Origin: Bacteroidota bacterium
GTDB taxonomy: Bacteria; Bacteroidota; Bacteroidia; Bacteroidales; FEN-979
Assembly: GCA_026391715.1 (NCBI GenBank)
Contig: JAPLDO010000206.1
Location: 1-59,527, forward strand
Length of the DNA: 59,527 nucleotides
Reading direction: 5' to 3'
Made by a program: the position numbers and the translations under genes. Below, one piece after another: positions 52,762 to 59,364 of the stretch (within the stretch, counting starts at the first letter, position 1; every line of letters begins with the position of its first letter). The notes under the pieces were generated by a model. The model saw only the letters and a list, made by a program, of their open reading frames with translations, ran no database searches and was not told where the DNA came from.

Positions 52762-53253
52762 CTAATCGGTTGAGCCAACTGTAATATGACTTCCGTCGCA
52801 GAATGGTTTTTTCCTGCTTTGTCCACAGCAGCAAATAGCGGCAATTTCTCCTTCGATTTGGATCTTCTTTTTCATGGCGTCCCGCACAATAAAATTACCG
52901 GTAACCAACGCGGGACCATTTTTGGTGATTTGAATCCTGGCAAATTTCGCTTTCTTTTTCGGGGTTTCGCGAGGTTTGGATGTGACAAATTTTGCACTTT
53001 TCAAATAGGTGATTGCACGCGAGGGACATGTATCAATTACCCTCATGATCTCTTTGCTGTTTGAGGCATGAACATTGATCCATGGTTTCTTTTTCGGATT
53101 AAATACTTCCGGTAATCCAAGAAGACAATTAGCAGAGTGAATGCATTTTTCAGGCTGCCAAAATATTGTTACTTCACCGTTTGAGTACTCAATAATGGTG
53201 TCCTTGGTTTTTTTAACCTCAATAAATTCTGATTTCGTAACTTTGTTTGACAT
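52762..53253 (-). CDS. YjdI-CDGSH fusion iron-sulfur protein
   Basis: I take ATG 53253 (163 residues); an upstream ATG at 53289 would add 12 residues. Residues about 20-80 match the YjdI/Fer4_19 mono-cluster domain (EKCIHSANCLLGLPEVF, then VIDTCPSRAITYLK). Residues about 125-160 are a CDGSH domain, with CCCGQSRKKPFCDGSH giving the three Cys and one His of a [2Fe-2S] site. A linker rich in Lys and Pro joins them. Redox or Fe-S transfer roles are plausible. Its neighbours are pnt genes and the Fe-S cluster at 53459-56857. Confidence 0.85.
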   Translation of the reverse strand: MSNKVTKSEFIEVKKTKDTIIEYSNGEVTIFWQPEKCIHSANCLLGLPEVFNPKKKPWINVHASNSKEIMRVIDTCPSRAITYLKSAKFVTSKPRETPKKKAKFARIQITKNGPALVTGNFIVRDAMKKKIQIEGEIAAICCCGQSRKKPFCDGSHITVGSTD

Positions 53254-53348
53254 GTGAGTGGATGTTAAAATTTTCGTAAAGATAATCATTATTTATTTTT
53301 GGCAAAAAAATGATGCGTTCAGTCTAAAAACTATTGATTTTGGGCTAA

Positions 53349-53458: not shown

Positions 53459-54148
53459 TTACCCAATGAACAACCCTTCAATTCTGACTTTATAACTGCC
53501 ATCGGGAAGTTTGGTAACAGCGTTAACCAATCCGCTGTGCCTCCATTGCAACATGCATCGGCGTGGCATAAACCAATACCGGCGACCAAGTTCAATTTTC
53601 TCTTTCGATTCTTTGATGATTCCTTCATAACCCTGGGCAATATAGTAACCTATATCAATAAAACCTTCCGATCTGGGTCGGAGCGGACCGGTAACACACC
53701 AGTTGATCACACCGTTTCGCGGATCGGCGTCGGTGACAACGCCGCAATGGGTGATTGGGCAGCCACACGACATGCCCATTGGTCGTCCGATCATTACATC
53801 GCCTTTTTTAACCCCAAGCTCCTTTGTGAGCAGAGGATTGTAGGGCAAAACAGTTTCCCTTGGTCCCGGCTCATTTTCAAAACAATCGAGGATAAAATCA
53901 AAATCGCGCTTCAGGTGATCTTTCCAACCCATTTTTTCACCCATCTGACTGGCGGTTTTACATTCAATGCAGTTTAACATGCTCTTTGTTTCCGAACCGT
54001 TGGTTTTCAGGTGGATGCACATTTTAATTGAAGTCTCTGAGTTGTCCACCGCAAAGCCGAACTCATCACAGGTTTTATAACCGCAAACGCCACAGTTCAG
54101 TTGCGGCAACCGCTCAAATGTTTTACTCTCTTTTACTGCTGTTTCCAT
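53459..54148 (-). CDS. Double-cluster (Fe-S)-binding protein of unknown function
   Basis: A 229-residue cytoplasmic protein. The N-terminal LNCGVCGYKTCDEFGFAV with a fourth Cys in IKMCIHLK is a C-X2-C-X4-C-X16-C motif of the PF04060-type [4Fe-4S] domain seen in corrinoid Fe-S proteins and RnfB. Further cysteines (LNCIECKT, SCGCPITHCGVV, NWC) suggest a second metal site in the C-terminal part, where GRPMGMSCGCP is striking. It is the last gene in a set with cysteine desulfurase, GTPase and ABC ATPase. I do not know its target. Confidence 0.78.
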   Translation of the reverse strand: METAVKESKTFERLPQLNCGVCGYKTCDEFGFAVDNSETSIKMCIHLKTNGSETKSMLNCIECKTASQMGEKMGWKDHLKRDFDFILDCFENEPGPRETVLPYNPLLTKELGVKKGDVMIGRPMGMSCGCPITHCGVVTDADPRNGVINWCVTGPLRPRSEGFIDIGYYIAQGYEGIIKESKEKIELGRRYWFMPRRCMLQWRHSGLVNAVTKLPDGSYKVRIEGLFIG

Positions 54149-54161
54149 AATTTTTGTTGAT

Positions 54162-55340
54162 TTAATGGGTAGATATTGAAAATATTGAAGTCAGGCTGCT
54201 AATTGCCTGTGATAGCGAACTGGTGAAAATATCCAAATCATTTTCAGTGGTAAACCGCCCCATGCTTACCCTGATTGCGCCTCGCGCCTCAAACGGATTA
54301 AGTCCGATTGCCTGCAATACATGCGAAGCATTGTGCGATTTGTCGTTTGAAGAGCATGCAGAGCCGGCTGATACAGCAATTCCCATTTCATCGAGAAGAA
54401 GAAGCAGCCTTATTGTTTCGCCTTCCAGCCCATGAAAACTAAAGCTCAAATGCCCCGGTAACCGTTTATCTGGATGACCATTGATGTAGGCGCTTTCATT
54501 ATTTTTGAAGATGAATCTGACCAGTTTTTCCCTGAGTAAGGATAATCGTTTCCCTTCTCCTTTCATTTCCTGCACACAAAGTTCGGCTGCTTTGGCAAAA
54601 CCAACAATGCCAGGAATGTTTTCGGTGGAGGAACGTAAACCAGCCTCCTGCCCGCCGCCGTGTAAAAGCGGAAATATATTTACTCCTTTTCGTATGTACA
54701 ATGCGCCGACGCCTTTGGGTCCATAAATTTTATGCGCATTGATTGTGAGCAGATCAACATGATCCCGGTTCACATCAACAGGAATTTTTCCAAACGACTG
54801 ACAGGCGTCAGAATGAAAATAAATATCGTGATTTTTACAAATTCTGCCAATCTCTTCAATCGGTTGAATCGTTCCAATTTCGTTGTTTGCATGCATTACA
54901 GAAACCAGGATCGTTTTAGGATTTATAGCTTCCTTCAGCGCTGGAAGGTCAACTATTCCATCGGAATCAACCGGAAGGTAAGTGATAAAAAAACCTTGCT
55001 CCGAAAGTTGGTTGCATGTATTTAAAATGCAGTCATGCTCAATGGCGGAAACGATTATGTGGCGTCCTTTGTGCCGGTTGGCGTCGGCGATACCCCTTAA
55101 AGCCCAGTTATTGGATTCCGTTCCGCCGGAAGTGAAGTACAATTCATCGGAATTCGCCCCAATGCACCGGGCTATTGTAGTTCTCGAATTTTCCAGAACC
55201 GCCTTGGCATGTGCGCCAAAATGATGCAGGCTCGATGCATTTCCATAAACATCAGAAAAACACGGAACCATGACTTTCAACACCCGTTCATCGAGACAGG
55301 TTGTTGCTGCATTGTCTAAATAAATGCTATTATTCATCAT
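54162..55340 (-). CDS. Cysteine desulfurase (NifS/IscS family)
   Basis: A 392-residue PLP enzyme providing persulfide sulfur from cysteine for Fe-S clusters. YLDNAATTCLDERVL at the start, FTSGGTESNNWAL, FHSDACQSFGKIPVDV and the PLP lysine in INAHKIYGPKGVGALY are visible; the active-site Cys is in SAGSACSSNDK (about residue 325). The short loop there places it closer to the NifS/IscS class than to SufS. It lies 13 bases from the Fe-S protein gene and 8 from the GTPase gene, so it is probably dedicated to this operon. Confidence 0.92.
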   Translation of the reverse strand: MMNNSIYLDNAATTCLDERVLKVMVPCFSDVYGNASSLHHFGAHAKAVLENSRTTIARCIGANSDELYFTSGGTESNNWALRGIADANRHKGRHIIVSAIEHDCILNTCNQLSEQGFFITYLPVDSDGIVDLPALKEAINPKTILVSVMHANNEIGTIQPIEEIGRICKNHDIYFHSDACQSFGKIPVDVNRDHVDLLTINAHKIYGPKGVGALYIRKGVNIFPLLHGGGQEAGLRSSTENIPGIVGFAKAAELCVQEMKGEGKRLSLLREKLVRFIFKNNESAYINGHPDKRLPGHLSFSFHGLEGETIRLLLLLDEMGIAVSAGSACSSNDKSHNASHVLQAIGLNPFEARGAIRVSMGRFTTENDLDIFTSSLSQAISSLTSIFSISTH

Positions 55341-55348
55341 AATTATTG

Positions 55349-56050
55349 TTATTCGCCTACATAAAAAAGTTCATGGTCAAGAGTGCGAAGAACGCCGAAA
55401 TGGTTTTTAGCGCCAATCTCTTTTTTGCCTACGCAAATTGTACAGGTTCCAACCGGCGGATTTCCGCGGAGAAACATCGGAAACTCTACATCAGGGGTTT
55501 TAAGTATGTGTTTTACAATAGGATCAATTCCGATTCCATAGAGCGCATTGCTTTCCACCACCGTGATTCCCTTTGCCGATTCAAGTACGCGGTAACGAAA
55601 TACCTCTCGTTCAGCTTGCGAAATGAGATCAATTTTTGTAATTACGCTGATGTCGGCAAGCGTAAGCATCGGACCAATTTTTCTTGGCAGGTTCATGCCG
55701 CTGGTTGCTTCAAGAACAACAATACCGAGCGAGTTTTCCACATAAGGAGAACACCTCAAACACAACCCGGCTGTTTCCACAAAAAGGTAACTGGCGCCCG
55801 ACTTTTCCGCCCATTCCACGGCTTCATCGAGAACTACTACATTGCAATGGTCGGGACACAATTCGCCTGAATAGATTTTTTTAACCGGAATTCCAAACTC
55901 TTTTGCAATGATGCTGTCATCGTCGGCATAAAGAACGTCAATCTTAAGATAGGCGGGTTTAATCTGCCTTGCTATCATTCGCTTCAGTACCTGCCGGATA
56001 ACGGTTGTTTTTCCGCATGTTGGCGGACCGGCAAAAATTACGAGTTTCAT
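55349..56050 (-). CDS. CobW/HypB-like P-loop GTPase
   Basis: A 233-residue SIMIBI-class NTPase. Walker A is FAGPPTCGKTTVIRQ (about 5-19), switch-like residues are in VLDEAVEWAEKSGASYLFVE, and ITKIDLI is the guanine-specificity motif. Cysteine pairs CPDHC, GLCLRC and GTCTIC could bind a metal or cluster, as in UreG, HypB and CobW metallochaperones. It sits between the ABC ATPase and the cysteine desulfurase with 8-9 base gaps. A role in loading a metal or cluster onto a target is inference. Confidence 0.8.
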   Translation of the reverse strand: MKLVIFAGPPTCGKTTVIRQVLKRMIARQIKPAYLKIDVLYADDDSIIAKEFGIPVKKIYSGELCPDHCNVVVLDEAVEWAEKSGASYLFVETAGLCLRCSPYVENSLGIVVLEATSGMNLPRKIGPMLTLADISVITKIDLISQAEREVFRYRVLESAKGITVVESNALYGIGIDPIVKHILKTPDVEFPMFLRGNPPVGTCTICVGKKEIGAKNHFGVLRTLDHELFYVGE

Positions 56051-56059
56051 ATTAGTTAA

Positions 56060-56857
56060 TTAAAAGGTTAATACTTTGAAATTCTCATTGAATAAGGATT
56101 CGGTAAGTTCATCGCCCGATCTGATAATCTGCCTGAAGTCGAGCATCATGTCGTCTATCTGCTTCATTTTCCCAACAACCCTTTTCTCCTCCTGACGGGT
56201 AGAAATCATTTGTTGCATCGCTCCGTTTTTCATAACTATTCTGAAATCCGACATAAGCGCGATGCAGGGATCATGCGTGACAAAGACGAAGATTTTTTTA
56301 TATCTCTTCAGCAGTTCAAGCGCTTTGGTGCGATGAATTCCAGCATTTTCAATTTCATCCAATAATATAATAGGTGAGTTTCCAATAACCACAGCATCGG
56401 CAATAAGCAACGAACGGGTTTGTCCGCCCGATAATTCCGTCATGCCAATGTCTCTCATAATTGCCTCGCCGGTGAGTTCGTTAGCAAAGTTGAGAGTCTC
56501 GGTGATAATTGATTCAACATCTTTGGCTCCACGCACGGTTGCATGAATTGTCAGAAATTCCTCTACCGGAAGATCGCTCAGAAAGTTTGTGTGCTGTGAA
56601 ATCAGCGCAATCGGATGGTTCGACGGATCGAAAATGAAATCCTCCGGAACCGGTTCGTCATTAATGGACACCCGCCTTCCCGACGGAGTGTTTTGATTGG
56701 CAAAAAGTTCGATGTCGTTTATCAGGGTGGTTTTTCCGCAACCGGTAGGTCCCACAATACTTACAATGTCGCCAACTTCCATGCTGAACTCCTTCACTTT
56801 CTCTTCAGAACCGTCTTTTCCATATCCTCCGAAAAGGGTAATTTTATTTACTTCCAT
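56060..56857 (-). CDS. Stand-alone ABC ATPase of a putative Fe-S/metal module
   Basis: A 265-residue ABC nucleotide-binding domain: Walker A GPTGCGKTTLIND (about 34-46), Q-loop ALISQHTNFLSDLP, signature LSGGQTRSLLIADA, Walker B SPIILLDEIENAGI and H-loop FVFVTHDPCIALM. No permease gene is near and the protein has no membrane helix, so it may act as a soluble, SufC- or activase-like ATPase. The C-terminal about 50 residues are an extra helical extension. First gene of the minus-strand set; its promoter region is shared with the Fnr/Crp-type regulator. Confidence 0.82.
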   Translation of the reverse strand: MEVNKITLFGGYGKDGSEEKVKEFSMEVGDIVSIVGPTGCGKTTLINDIELFANQNTPSGRRVSINDEPVPEDFIFDPSNHPIALISQHTNFLSDLPVEEFLTIHATVRGAKDVESIITETLNFANELTGEAIMRDIGMTELSGGQTRSLLIADAVVIGNSPIILLDEIENAGIHRTKALELLKRYKKIFVFVTHDPCIALMSDFRIVMKNGAMQQMISTRQEEKRVVGKMKQIDDMMLDFRQIIRSGDELTESLFNENFKVLTF

Positions 56858-56876
56858 GGGTCAAATATTTTTTTTA

Positions 56877-56916
56877 CAAATATATACACTATGTTCACCG
56901 ATTTAGTGTACATTTG
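56877..56916. promoter_or_regulatory. Divergent promoter pair with central dyad operator
   Basis: The minus-strand -7 box TATATTTG (56877-56884) and the plus-strand -7 box TACATTTG (56909-56916) flank the dyad TACACTA-N12-TAGTGTA (56885-56891 / 56904-56910). Neither direction has a TTTG -33 box; the dyad arms lie where they would be. This suggests one regulator controlling both directions. Confidence 0.6.
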
Positions 56917-56955
56917 CCACGATTATTCAATATTGAGATATTAAATTTTATATAC

Positions 56956-56961
56956 AGGAGG
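56956..56961 (+). promoter_or_regulatory. Strong Shine-Dalgarno for the Fnr/Crp gene
   Basis: AGGAGG, 10 bases before ATG 56972. Such strong sites are uncommon in Bacteroidota and support this start. Confidence 0.6.
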
Positions 56962-56971
56962 ATAAAAAAAT

Positions 56972-57676
56972 ATGGAATCAGTCGGAGACGCCTACAAATT
57001 GTTCAACTGCAAAACTTGCTTTTTAAATACTTTTACCAGCGCATTTCTTAGCGAAGAGGAACGTGGGAGTATATGTGGAAGCGCCGATCAGTTGCATTTC
57101 AAGAAAGGAGAAGTGATTTTGAAACAGGGCGCCAATTCAACAAGTATTGGTTTTCTGCACAAAGGAATCGTAAAATTTACTTATGAGAAGGATGCTAAAA
57201 AGTGTTACATCATGACAATAGTTTCCGGTCCTAAACTGATTGGGCAGGCGAATTTGTTTTTCAGGGAGAAAAATATTTTTTCAATTGTAGCTGTGGAAGA
57301 TTGTGATATTTGCTTTCTCGACAGCCGGAAAGTACTTGGTTTGCTTGAGAATCATGGAAAGTTTTTATTATCGCTTGTTGAACGTTCATCGGATATGTTC
57401 CAGGCTTCCATTTTCAATTTTATCAGCCTCGCGCACAATCATGTATATGGACGTATCGCTGATATTCTAATCTTTCTTTGGGAAAACGTTTACCGGAATT
57501 CGGAATATGAATTTACGCTGTCGCGAAAGGAGATTGCAGAATTTGCTGCATGTTCGCACGAAAATGTGATTTCGGTTCTATCCAAATATAATAAGGAAGG
57601 GCTAATAGCTTTTGAAGGAAAGAAAATTATCATCAAGGATATGAATAAGTTAAAAGAAATCAGTAAAAACGGATAA
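56972..57676 (+). CDS. Crp/Fnr-family transcriptional regulator
   Basis: A 234-residue regulator with an N-terminal cyclic-nucleotide-binding-fold domain (about 35-140: HFKKGEVILKQGANS and IGFLHKGIVKF) and a C-terminal winged helix (about 155-228, with LSRKEIAEFAACSHENVISV as recognition-helix region). N-terminal cysteines in FNCKTCF and another at SICGS could bind a redox-sensitive cluster, though Cys pairs there are common in this group. It is divergent from the ABC ATPase gene and followed 10 bases later by an Rrf2 regulator. Confidence 0.88.
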   Translation: MESVGDAYKLFNCKTCFLNTFTSAFLSEEERGSICGSADQLHFKKGEVILKQGANSTSIGFLHKGIVKFTYEKDAKKCYIMTIVSGPKLIGQANLFFREKNIFSIVAVEDCDICFLDSRKVLGLLENHGKFLLSLVERSSDMFQASIFNFISLAHNHVYGRIADILIFLWENVYRNSEYEFTLSRKEIAEFAACSHENVISVLSKYNKEGLIAFEGKKIIIKDMNKLKEISKNG

Positions 57677-57686
57677 TTGGTTTTAT

Positions 57687-58109
57687 ATGCTCTCAAAAAA
57701 AACAAGATATGCAATGGTTGCGCTTACAAGGCTTGCCCGCGAATACGGAAATGGGATAATTTTGATAAGCGACCTCGCGAATAGCGAAAAACTTCCACAG
57801 AGGTTCCTCGAAAATATTTTACTTGAACTGAAGAAAATGGGCATCCTTGGAAGTAAACTGGGGAAGTCGGGCGGTTATTTCCTTTTACGACACCCCAAAG
57901 ATGTAAACCTCGCCGAAATTGTCCGACAATTTGAAGGACCTATCGCGCTGTTATCATGCGTTTCAGAAAAAGCTTATCAATCGTGTGAATTTTGCAAAGA
58001 TGAGACTGCCTGCAACATTCGGAAAGTGTTTAAGGAAATCAGGGATAATACCTTTGAAATACTGGAAAACACAACGCTGGAAATGTTGATTAAGGAGAAC
58101 ACATCCTGA
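57687..58109 (+). CDS. Rrf2-family (IscR/NsrR-like) regulator
   Basis: A 140-residue Rrf2 protein. The winged-helix N-terminus (MLSKKTRYAMVALTRLA, SEKLPQRFLENILLELKK, GKSGGYFLLRHP) is followed by SCVSEKAYQSCEFCKDETAC, which supplies the cysteines for a [2Fe-2S] or [4Fe-4S] sensor cluster. It likely senses Fe-S status, NO or redox state. Being in one transcript with an Fnr/Crp regulator and opposite an Fe-S gene set, it is a good candidate to control that set. Confidence 0.9.
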   Translation: MLSKKTRYAMVALTRLAREYGNGIILISDLANSEKLPQRFLENILLELKKMGILGSKLGKSGGYFLLRHPKDVNLAEIVRQFEGPIALLSCVSEKAYQSCEFCKDETACNIRKVFKEIRDNTFEILENTTLEMLIKENTS

Positions 58110-58290: not shown

Positions 58291-59364
58291 TTGCTTTTTC
58301 TGCCTGAATGTGTCGGTTTCGGCGACGTGAACTCACTGGCACACGGCAGCCTCGGAACTGAAAGGATTATTGACGGTCAGATTGTTTCCTCTATGTTATA
58401 TGTCAGCACGACATTTGGCGGACTGGAAACTGTGTTTGGGTTCAATTTTATAGATGGGCGAATTAAGGGATATCCAACTACTTACACTGTTCCGGAATGC
58501 GGAACAGCAAAGCATTTCTATGTATTATATGTTCGCGGCAATGCAGCGTATGGAACAAATCAATTCGTTGACAACGGAAACGGAACAATTACCGATAACG
58601 CTACTGGTTTGATGTGGATGCAAAATGATAACGGGACAGGTGTTTTATGGAAGGAGGCATTGAGTTATGCGGAAAATTTCACCTTTGCAGGATATTCGGA
58701 TTGGCGATTACCCGATACCAAAGAATTGCAAAGTATAATTGACTATACCCGTTCTTCTGCAACAACCGGTTCGGCAGCAATAAACCCAATATTCAACTGC
58801 ACCCAGATTGTGAATGAAGGAGGCGCGGCAGATTATCCCTGGTACTGGAGCGCCACAACTTTTTCTTTGACATCGCTGACAAACGGAGCAAGCGCCACTT
58901 ATGTATGCTTCGGAAGAGCGATGGGCTATTTTACCGGTTTAGGATGGACTGATATACATGGGGCAGGATGTCAGCGAAGCGATCCTAAACCCAGAAGCTT
59001 TTCGGGATACACACATAATGGAAATGGATATTACAATCCTAATGCTCCCCAATGCGATGCCGTCAGGATATACAATTATGTCCGTTTGGTAAGAAGTGGA
59101 TCTTCAACCGGAATCAACGAAAACAAAGACAATCATCTGTTTAATGTTTATCCTAACCCCATTTCCAATGAATTTACGATTGAAATAAAAGGAAACAGGG
59201 AAAACGTTAGCTTTGAACTTTTAAATTCTTTCGGTCAAATCGTGCAAACCGGCAGTTTTATTGAAACAACCGTTTTTAATACCCCCAACCTTGCAACCGG
59301 GGTTTATTTGGTAAAACTTCAAAATGGCAATACCTTTGAGGTGAAAAAGTTAATAAAAGAATAG
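58291..59364 (+). CDS. DUF1566 (Lcl-type) protein with T9SS sorting domain, 5'-truncated
   Basis: A 357-codon frame. DNGNGTITDNATGLMWMQND, then AGYSDWRLPDTKELQSIIDY and DYPWYWSATTFS belong to the DUF1566 domain (about 95-275). The end (NVYPNPISNEF, then ATGVYLVKLQNG and the Lys-rich finish) is a type IX secretion sorting domain. No signal peptide is present: homologous-looking sequence starts abruptly at GDVNSLAHGSLGTE, so the 5' part has been lost and the ATG at 58291 is unlikely to be real. The encoded protein would not be exported as it stands. Confidence 0.75.
   Translation: MLFLPECVGFGDVNSLAHGSLGTERIIDGQIVSSMLYVSTTFGGLETVFGFNFIDGRIKGYPTTYTVPECGTAKHFYVLYVRGNAAYGTNQFVDNGNGTITDNATGLMWMQNDNGTGVLWKEALSYAENFTFAGYSDWRLPDTKELQSIIDYTRSSATTGSAAINPIFNCTQIVNEGGAADYPWYWSATTFSLTSLTNGASATYVCFGRAMGYFTGLGWTDIHGAGCQRSDPKPRSFSGYTHNGNGYYNPNAPQCDAVRIYNYVRLVRSGSSTGINENKDNHLFNVYPNPISNEFTIEIKGNRENVSFELLNSFGQIVQTGSFIETTVFNTPNLATGVYLVKLQNGNTFEVKKLIKE

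Follow-up and report, generated by a model that had tools for sequence, protein, structure and literature searches.

A NifS-equipped, regulator-flanked bacterial variant of the archaeal ATPase-GTPase-COG2000 trio with a possible role in sulfur assimilation

Introduction

The closest described relatives of the gene set reported here are archaeal. Chadwick et al. (2025; PMC12068725) note in their Figure 2 legend that three genes, encoding an ATPase, a Ni2+-binding GTPase, and an iron-sulfur (Fe-S) protein of type COG2000, are often found near coenzyme M genes, and that their putative role is unknown. Passages in that paper and in PMC6286981 also call unclear which sulfur species the thiol-forming archaeal enzymes use and where the sulfite for coenzyme M originates. 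Here, we analyzed a bacterial counterpart in a stretch of 59,527 nucleotides (nt) from a Bacteroidota bacterium (contig JAPLDO010000206.1, assembly GCA_026391715.1; the whole stretch is referred to as the window), where genes for a soluble ATP-binding cassette (ABC) ATPase, a GTPase, a NifS-type cysteine desulfurase, and a 229 amino acid (aa) Fe-S protein face two regulator genes. The label COG2000 follows the legend in PMC12068725; it rests on gene position and on relatedness in sequence to the archaeal loci rather than on a COG search.

A full-text literature search for COG2000 returned PMC12068725 as the only relevant paper, plus one unrelated paper, and searches combining parts of the module listed no paper on the bacterial set. 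The original prediction for this locus, made from the sequence alone, held that no characterized system has such a composition; none was found to be characterized, but the archaeal trio is already in print, at least in the legend cited. What is new here is a bacterial variant that has regulators and NifS, whereas the trio itself was known only from its gene position.

Results

The ABC-GTPase-Fe-S core is conserved across several phyla

A scan with the GTPase across contigs from one genome per species produced 169 relatives. The best 80 were kept as loci L034–L113, and their neighboring genes were called by tblastn and position. An ABC gene was located upstream of the GTPase gene in 76 of the 80 loci; in the remaining four, the contig ends too early. 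Downstream, 75 loci have a match to the Fe-S gene (four cut, one absent; three of the matches are partial). NifS was present in 60 loci, cut in one, and absent from 19, two of which retain a short remnant. For the 51 Bacteroidota loci, the counts were ABC 49, Fe-S 46, and NifS 47; for the 27 other bacterial loci (Omnitrophota, Acidobacteria, Planctomycetes, and others), they were 26, 27, and 13; and for the two archaeal loci among the best 80 (methanogens are among the phyla covered), they were 1, 2, and 0. Taken over all 78 bacterial loci, ABC was found in 75 (three cut), the Fe-S gene in 73 (four cut, one absent), and NifS in 60. Relatives of the window's two regulators were sought within 4 kb: Crp was found in 37/51 Bacteroidota loci and 0/27 other bacterial loci, and Rrf2 in 22/51 and 12/27, respectively. 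Because ABC and Fe-S genes are near-universal and NifS is found in 60/80 loci, the core of the module is ABC-GTPase-Fe-S, with NifS and the regulators as common additions. Conservation across genomes rules out chance as the source of the arrangement. The predicted co-occurrence of the four proteins was therefore borne out in several phyla, with the amendment that only the ABC-GTPase-Fe-S part behaves as a conserved unit and NifS is optional.

The 51 Bacteroidota loci include L044, which is titled Alphaproteobacteria. It is close to a Bacteroidales locus (L045) and is grouped with it in the GTPase tree (100/100), and its title is probably a binning or naming error. In seven loci, a small DUF6356-type protein is encoded between NifS and the Fe-S gene (L037:9961-10278, by Pfam; L042, L043, L052, L053, L073, and L080, by eye); it is absent from the window.

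Distribution was also assessed in genome sets. In 395 evenly drawn Bacteroidota genomes, a set that held few genomes of the window's order, 26 matched the Fe-S protein; the match was full length only in the window genome (G000) and limited to the N-terminal motif in the other 25. In the window's order (198 genomes), the GTPase family (E <= 1e-30) was found in 18, of which 13 were of the trio type and five of a sister type described below. Eleven of the 13 trio-type genomes showed the Fe-S gene; in the other two (L122 and L123), the short locus ends before reaching it. Besides the window genome, this draw held one further genome of the window's taxonomic family, in which the GTPase matches as two adjacent pieces covering residues 1–98 and 158–233 (G543:C43:12293-12806), so that the gene there is broken or misassembled. 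The phylum of a Methanocella genome (G420; we take this to be Halobacteriota in GTDB) was represented by 246 genomes: the GTPase (E <= 1e-30) was found in 66, and the Fe-S protein (E <= 1e-20) in 61, all within those 66. The five with the GTPase and no Fe-S match were G641, G675, G682, G732, and G823. In the phylum of a Syntrophaceae genome (G432), 12/247 genomes have the GTPase, most of the sister type by score. The Fe-S protein had no match in plasmids or viral contigs (the phage collection was not searched). For the GTPase, nine plasmid records matched, and by identity, only the Fusobacterium record belongs to this family. That record, NZ_CP084075.1, is a Fusobacterium vincentii entry with a single annotated feature; although it is labeled a plasmid, its length of 2.1 Mb is suggestive of a chromosome.

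The Fe-S protein has one invariant 4Fe-4S motif and an invariant Cys2His2 set

Residue conservation was measured across 99 Fe-S proteins with identities to the window copy down to 27%. The 4Fe-4S motif (C19, C22, C27, and C44) is invariant, and a second set, C130/H134/C198/H204, is likewise invariant; these are metal-type residues, and the set may bind a metal. D77, R122, E224, and several Gly/Pro positions are also invariant. C128 and C135 are kept in about 75%, C60 in 62%, and C63 in 64%. The protein had been described as a double-cluster Fe-S protein, an idea that C60 and C63 may have prompted. That description is too strong: there is one invariant 4Fe-4S motif, C60 and C63 are poorly kept by comparison, and the Cys2His2 set is of a different kind. 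Sequence searches matched corrinoid Fe-S proteins and RnfB through the N-terminal motif only. An AlphaFold model has a mean predicted local distance difference test score of 84.3 and a mostly beta C-terminal part, and a Foldseek search with this model against solved structures produced nothing below E 0.06.

The GTPase and ABC ATPase resemble cofactor assembly factors

The GTPase has a CobW/HypB/UreG domain with G1 and TKxD motifs, and three cysteine sites noted originally, C65-P-D-H68, C97xxC100, and C203xxC206, proved invariant among 122 aligned relatives. The PF02492 match together with invariant C65-P-D-H68 gives it the metal-type Cys/His motif expected of a UreG/HypB-like G domain. Solved structures that match over the domain are UreG (4hi0 and 5xkt) and HypB (2hf8, 4lps, and 2wsm); tandem RecA constructs also rank high, but without any stretch that passes on its own. 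The protein scores below the cut-offs of the HypB model (43.5 versus 121.2) and the UreG model (32 versus 204.2).

In the ABC ATPase, the Walker A, LSGGQ, Walker B, and H-loop motifs are intact. G36, T38, G39, G41, K42, Q88, LSGGQ (142–146), D167-E168, and H195 are invariant in 116 sequences. The same holds for R242, R246, and G248 of the C-terminal extension, so that the extension singled out in the original prediction is a conserved feature. No permease gene was seen in the cluster, in line with that prediction; the search did not extend to permeases encoded elsewhere. The SufC model was not among the best 25 of 142 family matches. NifS passes the cut-off of the IscS-subfamily model NF002806 (357.6 versus 304) and does not reach that of the NifS equivalog TIGR03402 (487.1 versus 530.75). 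K204, presumably the lysine that carries pyridoxal phosphate, is invariant, and C329, presumably the catalytic cysteine, is found in 54/56 sequences (the other two are gaps). The family matches thus agree with the earlier view that these are cofactor assembly-like parts.

A sister type pairs the GTPase and ABC ATPase with other proteins

A GTPase tree was made from 122 rows; its bootstrap was not fully settled, and long branches were flagged. All 55 Bacteroidota rows fall on one side of a branch (96/75), and 15 sister-type rows form one clade (100/98). In the sister type, GTPase and ABC genes are paired with an SBP_bac_6 protein (3/3 tested, 2/3 with a DUF1858 domain), and no match to the Fe-S protein or NifS was seen beside them. 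The sister type occurs in Fusobacterium (L033) as well as in certain archaea and members of the window's order; the genes beyond the GTPase and ABC genes in L033 resemble, by eye, a zinc-type ABC importer. The sister-type loci are L033 (NZ_CP084075.1), L129–L133, L203–L207, L210, and L213–L215, assigned by eye or position beyond the three tested. The GTPase and ABC ATPase look like a common engine that takes different third parts.

Three archaeal rows (L088, L104, and L179) are nested in the bacterial part of the tree, a placement suggestive of transfer from bacteria. Another six archaeal rows of the trio type (L195, L197, L208, L209, L211, and L212) group with the sister type when the GTPase tree is drawn with a midpoint root, and the archaeal trios therefore do not form a single clade in it.

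Two regulators and an operator-like site face the module

The Crp/Fnr-type regulator scores 29.4 against the Fnr model NF008365 (cut-off 228), and its C13, C16, C111, and C114 are kept in 75–93% of 40 relatives. The Rrf2-type regulator passes TIGR00738 (103 versus 73.3 bits) and scores 64.8 against the IscR model (cut-off 207.55); C91, C100, C103, and C109 are present in 26–28 of 37 relatives and missing in others, e.g., Omnitrophota. Most Bacteroidota copies of both regulators have Fe-S-type cysteine sets, and both may bind Fe-S clusters.

An operator-like pattern lies between the module and the regulator genes, in keeping with the predicted switching, and is the sole exact match in the window genome. 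We searched for it in the 250 bases upstream of the ABC gene, counting an Rrf2 gene within the locus. Sites with three or fewer mismatches were found in 24/26 Bacteroidota rows with an Rrf2 gene versus 9/24 without (p 5.8e-5), and with two or fewer in 20/26 versus 8/24 (p 0.004), for a pattern derived from some of the same loci and rows related to each other. The reversed pattern, at three or fewer mismatches in the same rows, gave three with Rrf2 and two without. In other phyla, the site was found in 3/12 rows with Rrf2 and 2/15 without, and the motif is unsupported outside Bacteroidota. The Rrf2 protein may bind this site.

Sulfur genes recur beside the module

The archaeal context sample comprised 26 loci: 24 stretches picked from 21 of the 66 GTPase-bearing genomes, plus L088 and L104. 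It includes two sister-type loci (L196 and L198) and omits a third (L210). MMP16 was found in 15 of the 26 loci, cysteate synthase in 17, and ComDE in 15, with names confirmed on one locus, L189, by TIGR03287 (526 bits), TIGR03844 (596), and TIGR03845/TIGR03846. The gene order in the archaeal trios read was ABC-GTPase-Fe-S. No match to MMP16, cysteate synthase, or ComDE (E <= 1e-15) was found in the window or the 78 bacterial loci. The archaeal genome G839 carries a second trio (L187), and within about 6 kb of it lie cysE, cysK, and genes for a SAMP1/MoaD-like carrier and a MoeB-like protein on the other strand. Another archaeal genome (G647, L179) has a bacterial-type trio with NifS, and MoeB-like, NifU/IscU, MetY, and, by eye, second NifS-like genes lie within about 8 kb.

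In bacteria, we counted cysteine/methionine (Cys/Met)-type genes, that is, CysK, MetB, MetY, serine acetyltransferase, HesA/MoeB, or cysteine-dioxygenase-like genes; example neighbors were confirmed by NCBIfam. They were present in 14/51 Bacteroidota loci versus 0/40 control stretches (Fisher p 1.8e-4), a contrast tempered by categories chosen after the loci had been viewed, by relatedness among the loci, and by a control that was smaller and mostly from contig starts. The control stretches came from 20 genomes of the same set (475 kb versus 682 kb) and were mostly the first 17 kb of contigs. Those recurrent neighbors whose metabolic role is known consume or produce sulfite, sulfur at the sulfide level, or a sulfur carrier, which points to a task in sulfur assimilation.

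No common client was found in the window's order

Three candidate clients were examined. PF01837 (HcyBio), which we take to be the Pfam family covering COG1900 enzymes, occurs in 7/198 order genomes, in none of the 18 with the GTPase, and not in the window genome; this absence removes it as a partner. The siroheme sulfite reductase domain PF01077 was found in neither the eight window proteins searched nor the window genome, and among 51 module genomes, it was present in 13 and missing from 38. Its absence is uninformative because it is rare in the whole order (13/198; 1/13 trio genomes versus 12/185 others), and the idea that the module replaces siroheme sulfite reductase, drawn from that absence, was dropped.

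HydE-type radical S-adenosylmethionine genes occur in 4/51 Bacteroidota loci: between NifS and the Fe-S gene in L057, L071, and L072 and after the Fe-S gene in L075. Those of L057 and L075 were tested and exceed the cut-off of 254.6 bits, at 344 and 338 bits, respectively. Genes above this cut-off are common throughout the order (120/198 genomes; 9/13 trio genomes versus 111/185 others), and HydE was rejected as a partner. None of the three is a common client in the window's order.

Layout of the locus

Six open reading frames, four on the minus strand and two on the plus strand, lie where the original prediction placed them (Table 1). The spacing inside the four-gene set is 9, 8, and 13 nt; positions, gaps of 8–13 nt, and family matches all agree with four packed genes opposite Fnr/Crp and Rrf2 genes.

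Table 1. Features of the module and its surroundings (positions in the window)
Feature	Position	Strand	Evidence
Fer4_19 + CDGSH protein, beyond the Fe-S gene	52762-53289	-	Family search
Fe-S protein, COG2000-type, 229 aa	53459-54148	-	PF04060, E 5.5e-10
NifS/IscS-type cysteine desulfurase, 392 aa	54162-55340	-	TIGR03402, 487.1 bits; NF002806, 357.6
UreG/HypB/CobW-type GTPase, 233 aa, three invariant Cys sites	55349-56050	-	PF02492, 45 bits, E 1.2e-11
Soluble ABC ATPase, 265 aa, first gene of the module	56060-56857	-	PF00005 ABC_tran, E 6.5e-15
Divergent intergenic region between ABC and Crp/Fnr genes, 114 nt	56858-56971	no strand	
Operator-like site in front of the ABC gene	56890-56907	-	Sequence pattern
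Crp/Fnr-type regulator, 234 aa	56972-57676	+	cNMP_binding + HTH_Crp_2
Rrf2-type regulator, 140 aa	57687-58109	+	Rrf2, E 4.5e-33; TIGR00738, 103 bits

Relatives of the Fer4_19 + CDGSH neighbor were found in 5/80 loci (L039–L043), and it probably lies outside the core. Transhydrogenase-like genes, named by eye, are also located past the Fe-S gene. Adjoining the Rrf2 gene, positions 58291-59364 (+) encode a protein with an Lcl_C domain and a sorting tail of the type IX secretion system kind. The whole window has no tRNA genes and no Rfam matches at the gathering threshold. A terminator scan gave a count not above that of shuffled sequence, and there were 15 promoter-like sites versus 10.2 (standard deviation 3.7) in shuffles.

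Discussion

We tentatively favor the reading, held at rather less than even confidence, that the module is a self-contained metalloprotein for sulfur assimilation together with its own maturation factors. The COG2000-type protein would be the working enzyme or an electron/sulfur-transfer protein, with a 4Fe-4S cluster near its N terminus and a second metal center at the Cys2His2 set. The UreG/HypB-like GTPase would load the metal of that second center, possibly nickel or iron; the SufC-like ABC ATPase would act as an ATP-driven assembly or conformational factor; and NifS, where present, would supply sulfur. The product could be reduced sulfur or a sulfur species passed to thiol-building enzymes; candidate recipients are coenzyme M and cysteate synthase in methanogens and, on the bacterial side, cysteine synthase and O-acetylhomoserine sulfhydrylase. 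The two regulators may tune the operon to Fe-S, cysteine, or redox status via the site in the shared promoter. Candidate tasks for the Fe-S protein include delivering sulfide, transferring sulfur, and interconverting sulfite and sulfide. An earlier claim that the module serves one unusual metalloprotein is thus kept in part: the assembly-like parts stand, but the client would most simply be the 229-aa protein itself, in a context of sulfur compound biosynthesis.

Several observations weigh against a role in sulfur assimilation. The window has no Cys/Met-type gene in its 59.5 kb, and no such neighbor was seen, in the sequence covered, in 37/51 Bacteroidota loci or 23/27 other bacterial loci; the four exceptions among the latter (L095–L097 and L103) are all Omnitrophota and close kin. 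Other neighbors also recur by eye, namely LuxR-type response regulators (eight loci), ABC ATPases (14), and sigma-54-type regulators (eight), and SsuB-like ABC genes are not clearly commoner beside the module (six in 51 loci versus three in 40 control stretches). A regulon search of four genomes at one mismatch or fewer returned 12 sites versus 22 for the reversed control, and exact matches were confined to module promoters, three of the four genomes having one there and the remaining promoter differing at a single position; the site therefore looks local, and a wider regulon is not indicated. If NifS draws sulfur from cysteine, sulfide production for cysteine would be circular, so NifS more likely serves cluster assembly. 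Finally, the chemistry of the C-terminal part of the Fe-S protein is not given by sequence or fold matches.

The nearest rival explanation retains the assembly-like character of the parts and moves the client elsewhere. All of them (UreG/HypB-like GTPase, NifS, soluble ABC ATPase, and Fe-S protein) resemble assembly factors, and the module could be a dedicated maturation machine for another, unlinked metalloenzyme, with the Fe-S protein as a scaffold and a metal-sulfur cofactor inserted elsewhere. We consider this rather unlikely: none of the three candidate clients tested (PF01837, PF01077, and HydE) fits, and the Fe-S protein was not seen without the GTPase in the 246 archaeal genomes, as expected if it is itself the client, although a scaffold predicts the same. 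The regulators with their cysteine sets, NifS, the soluble ABC ATPase, and the NifU/IscU and (by eye) second NifS-like genes near the trio in L179 would also suit Fe-S assembly or repair under oxidative, nitrosative, or iron stress, as an ISC/SUF-like variant under Rrf2 and Fnr-type control. The module lacks a SufB/SufD-like or IscU-like gene, NifS is absent from 19/80 loci (two with a short remnant), and the archaeal copies track coenzyme M genes in 15–17 of 26 loci, which together make such a repair system improbable.

Metal (nickel, zinc, or iron) homeostasis, as might be expected of the SBP_bac_6 sister family, draws on the single clade of the 15 sister GTPases (100/98), on the SBP_bac_6 and DUF1858 pairings (3/3 and 2/3 tested), and on the importer-like genes in L033, but no transporter was seen in the trio operon, where sulfur neighbors recur instead; we regard it as distinctly improbable. 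A narrower proposal, that the trio serves only the COG1900 aldehyde sulfurtransferases (MMP16 and L-ASST) of coenzyme M synthesis, accords with the 15/26 archaeal loci that carry MMP16 and with the co-location recorded in the Figure 2 legend of PMC12068725. It is disfavored for bacteria, where PF01837 is found in none of the 18 GTPase-bearing order genomes (13 of the trio type) and in seven others of the 198, and is highly unlikely as a general account. An anti-phage defense cluster built on a DndA/SspA-like desulfurase and an ATPase is hardly credible. NifS scores high against the PADLOC DndA and SspA models, which in our judgment probably match IscS-type enzymes generally; it falls under the NCBIfam DndA cut-off (391.6 versus 480), the Fe-S protein and GTPase have no PADLOC match, and by eye, no Dnd/Ssp partner was noticed among the neighbors.

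A more specific form of the sulfur assimilation role is that the COG2000-type protein, together with its GTPase and ABC ATPase, works as an enzyme without siroheme: at a Cys2His2 metal site loaded by the GTPase, it would convert sulfite and sulfide into each other or produce some other sulfur species. We rate so precise a proposal very unlikely. If it were true, the enzyme would be the missing source that provides methanogens with sulfite or sulfide for coenzyme M and anaerobic bacteria with sulfide for making cysteine and methionine, and it would explain why the trio lies beside cysteate synthase, MMP16, cysteine synthase, and MetY. More broadly, a trio that the legend in PMC12068725 ties to coenzyme M is also found next to cysteine and methionine genes in bacteria, which, where tested, do not have the coenzyme M synthase family. 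The question thereby shifts from coenzyme M to general anaerobic sulfur assimilation and can be tested in two kinds of organism. The function of the trio bears on the sulfur species used by archaeal thiol-forming enzymes and on the origin of sulfite for coenzyme M, and its Fe-S protein has a C-terminal part with no recognizable relative among solved structures.

Compared with known systems, the bacterial module is closest to the coenzyme M-linked archaeal trio, with the same three kinds of protein (as named in the legend in PMC12068725) in the same order, ABC-GTPase-Fe-S. The bacterial version differs in usually adding NifS (60/78 bacterial loci; NifS is also found in archaeal L179), in often having an Rrf2 regulator and, in Bacteroidota, Crp/Fnr regulators, and in occurring in genomes without PF01837 where tested and without co-located coenzyme M genes. 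Its GTPase resembles HypB and UreG in its domain and its G1 and TKxD motifs, but it falls below both cut-offs and has extra CxxC sites, and there is no hydrogenase or urease gene in the module. Like SufC, the ABC ATPase is soluble, permease-free, and clustered with a desulfurase; unlike the SUF system, the module has no SufB or SufD gene. Anaerobic sulfur incorporation with an Fe-S partner, as described in PMC12068725 for Methanosarcina L-ASST (MA1821-MA1822) and MMP16/ComF, offers a further likeness. In contrast to the module, those COG1900 enzymes are separate proteins, and PF01837 is absent from the GTPase-bearing genomes of the window's order.

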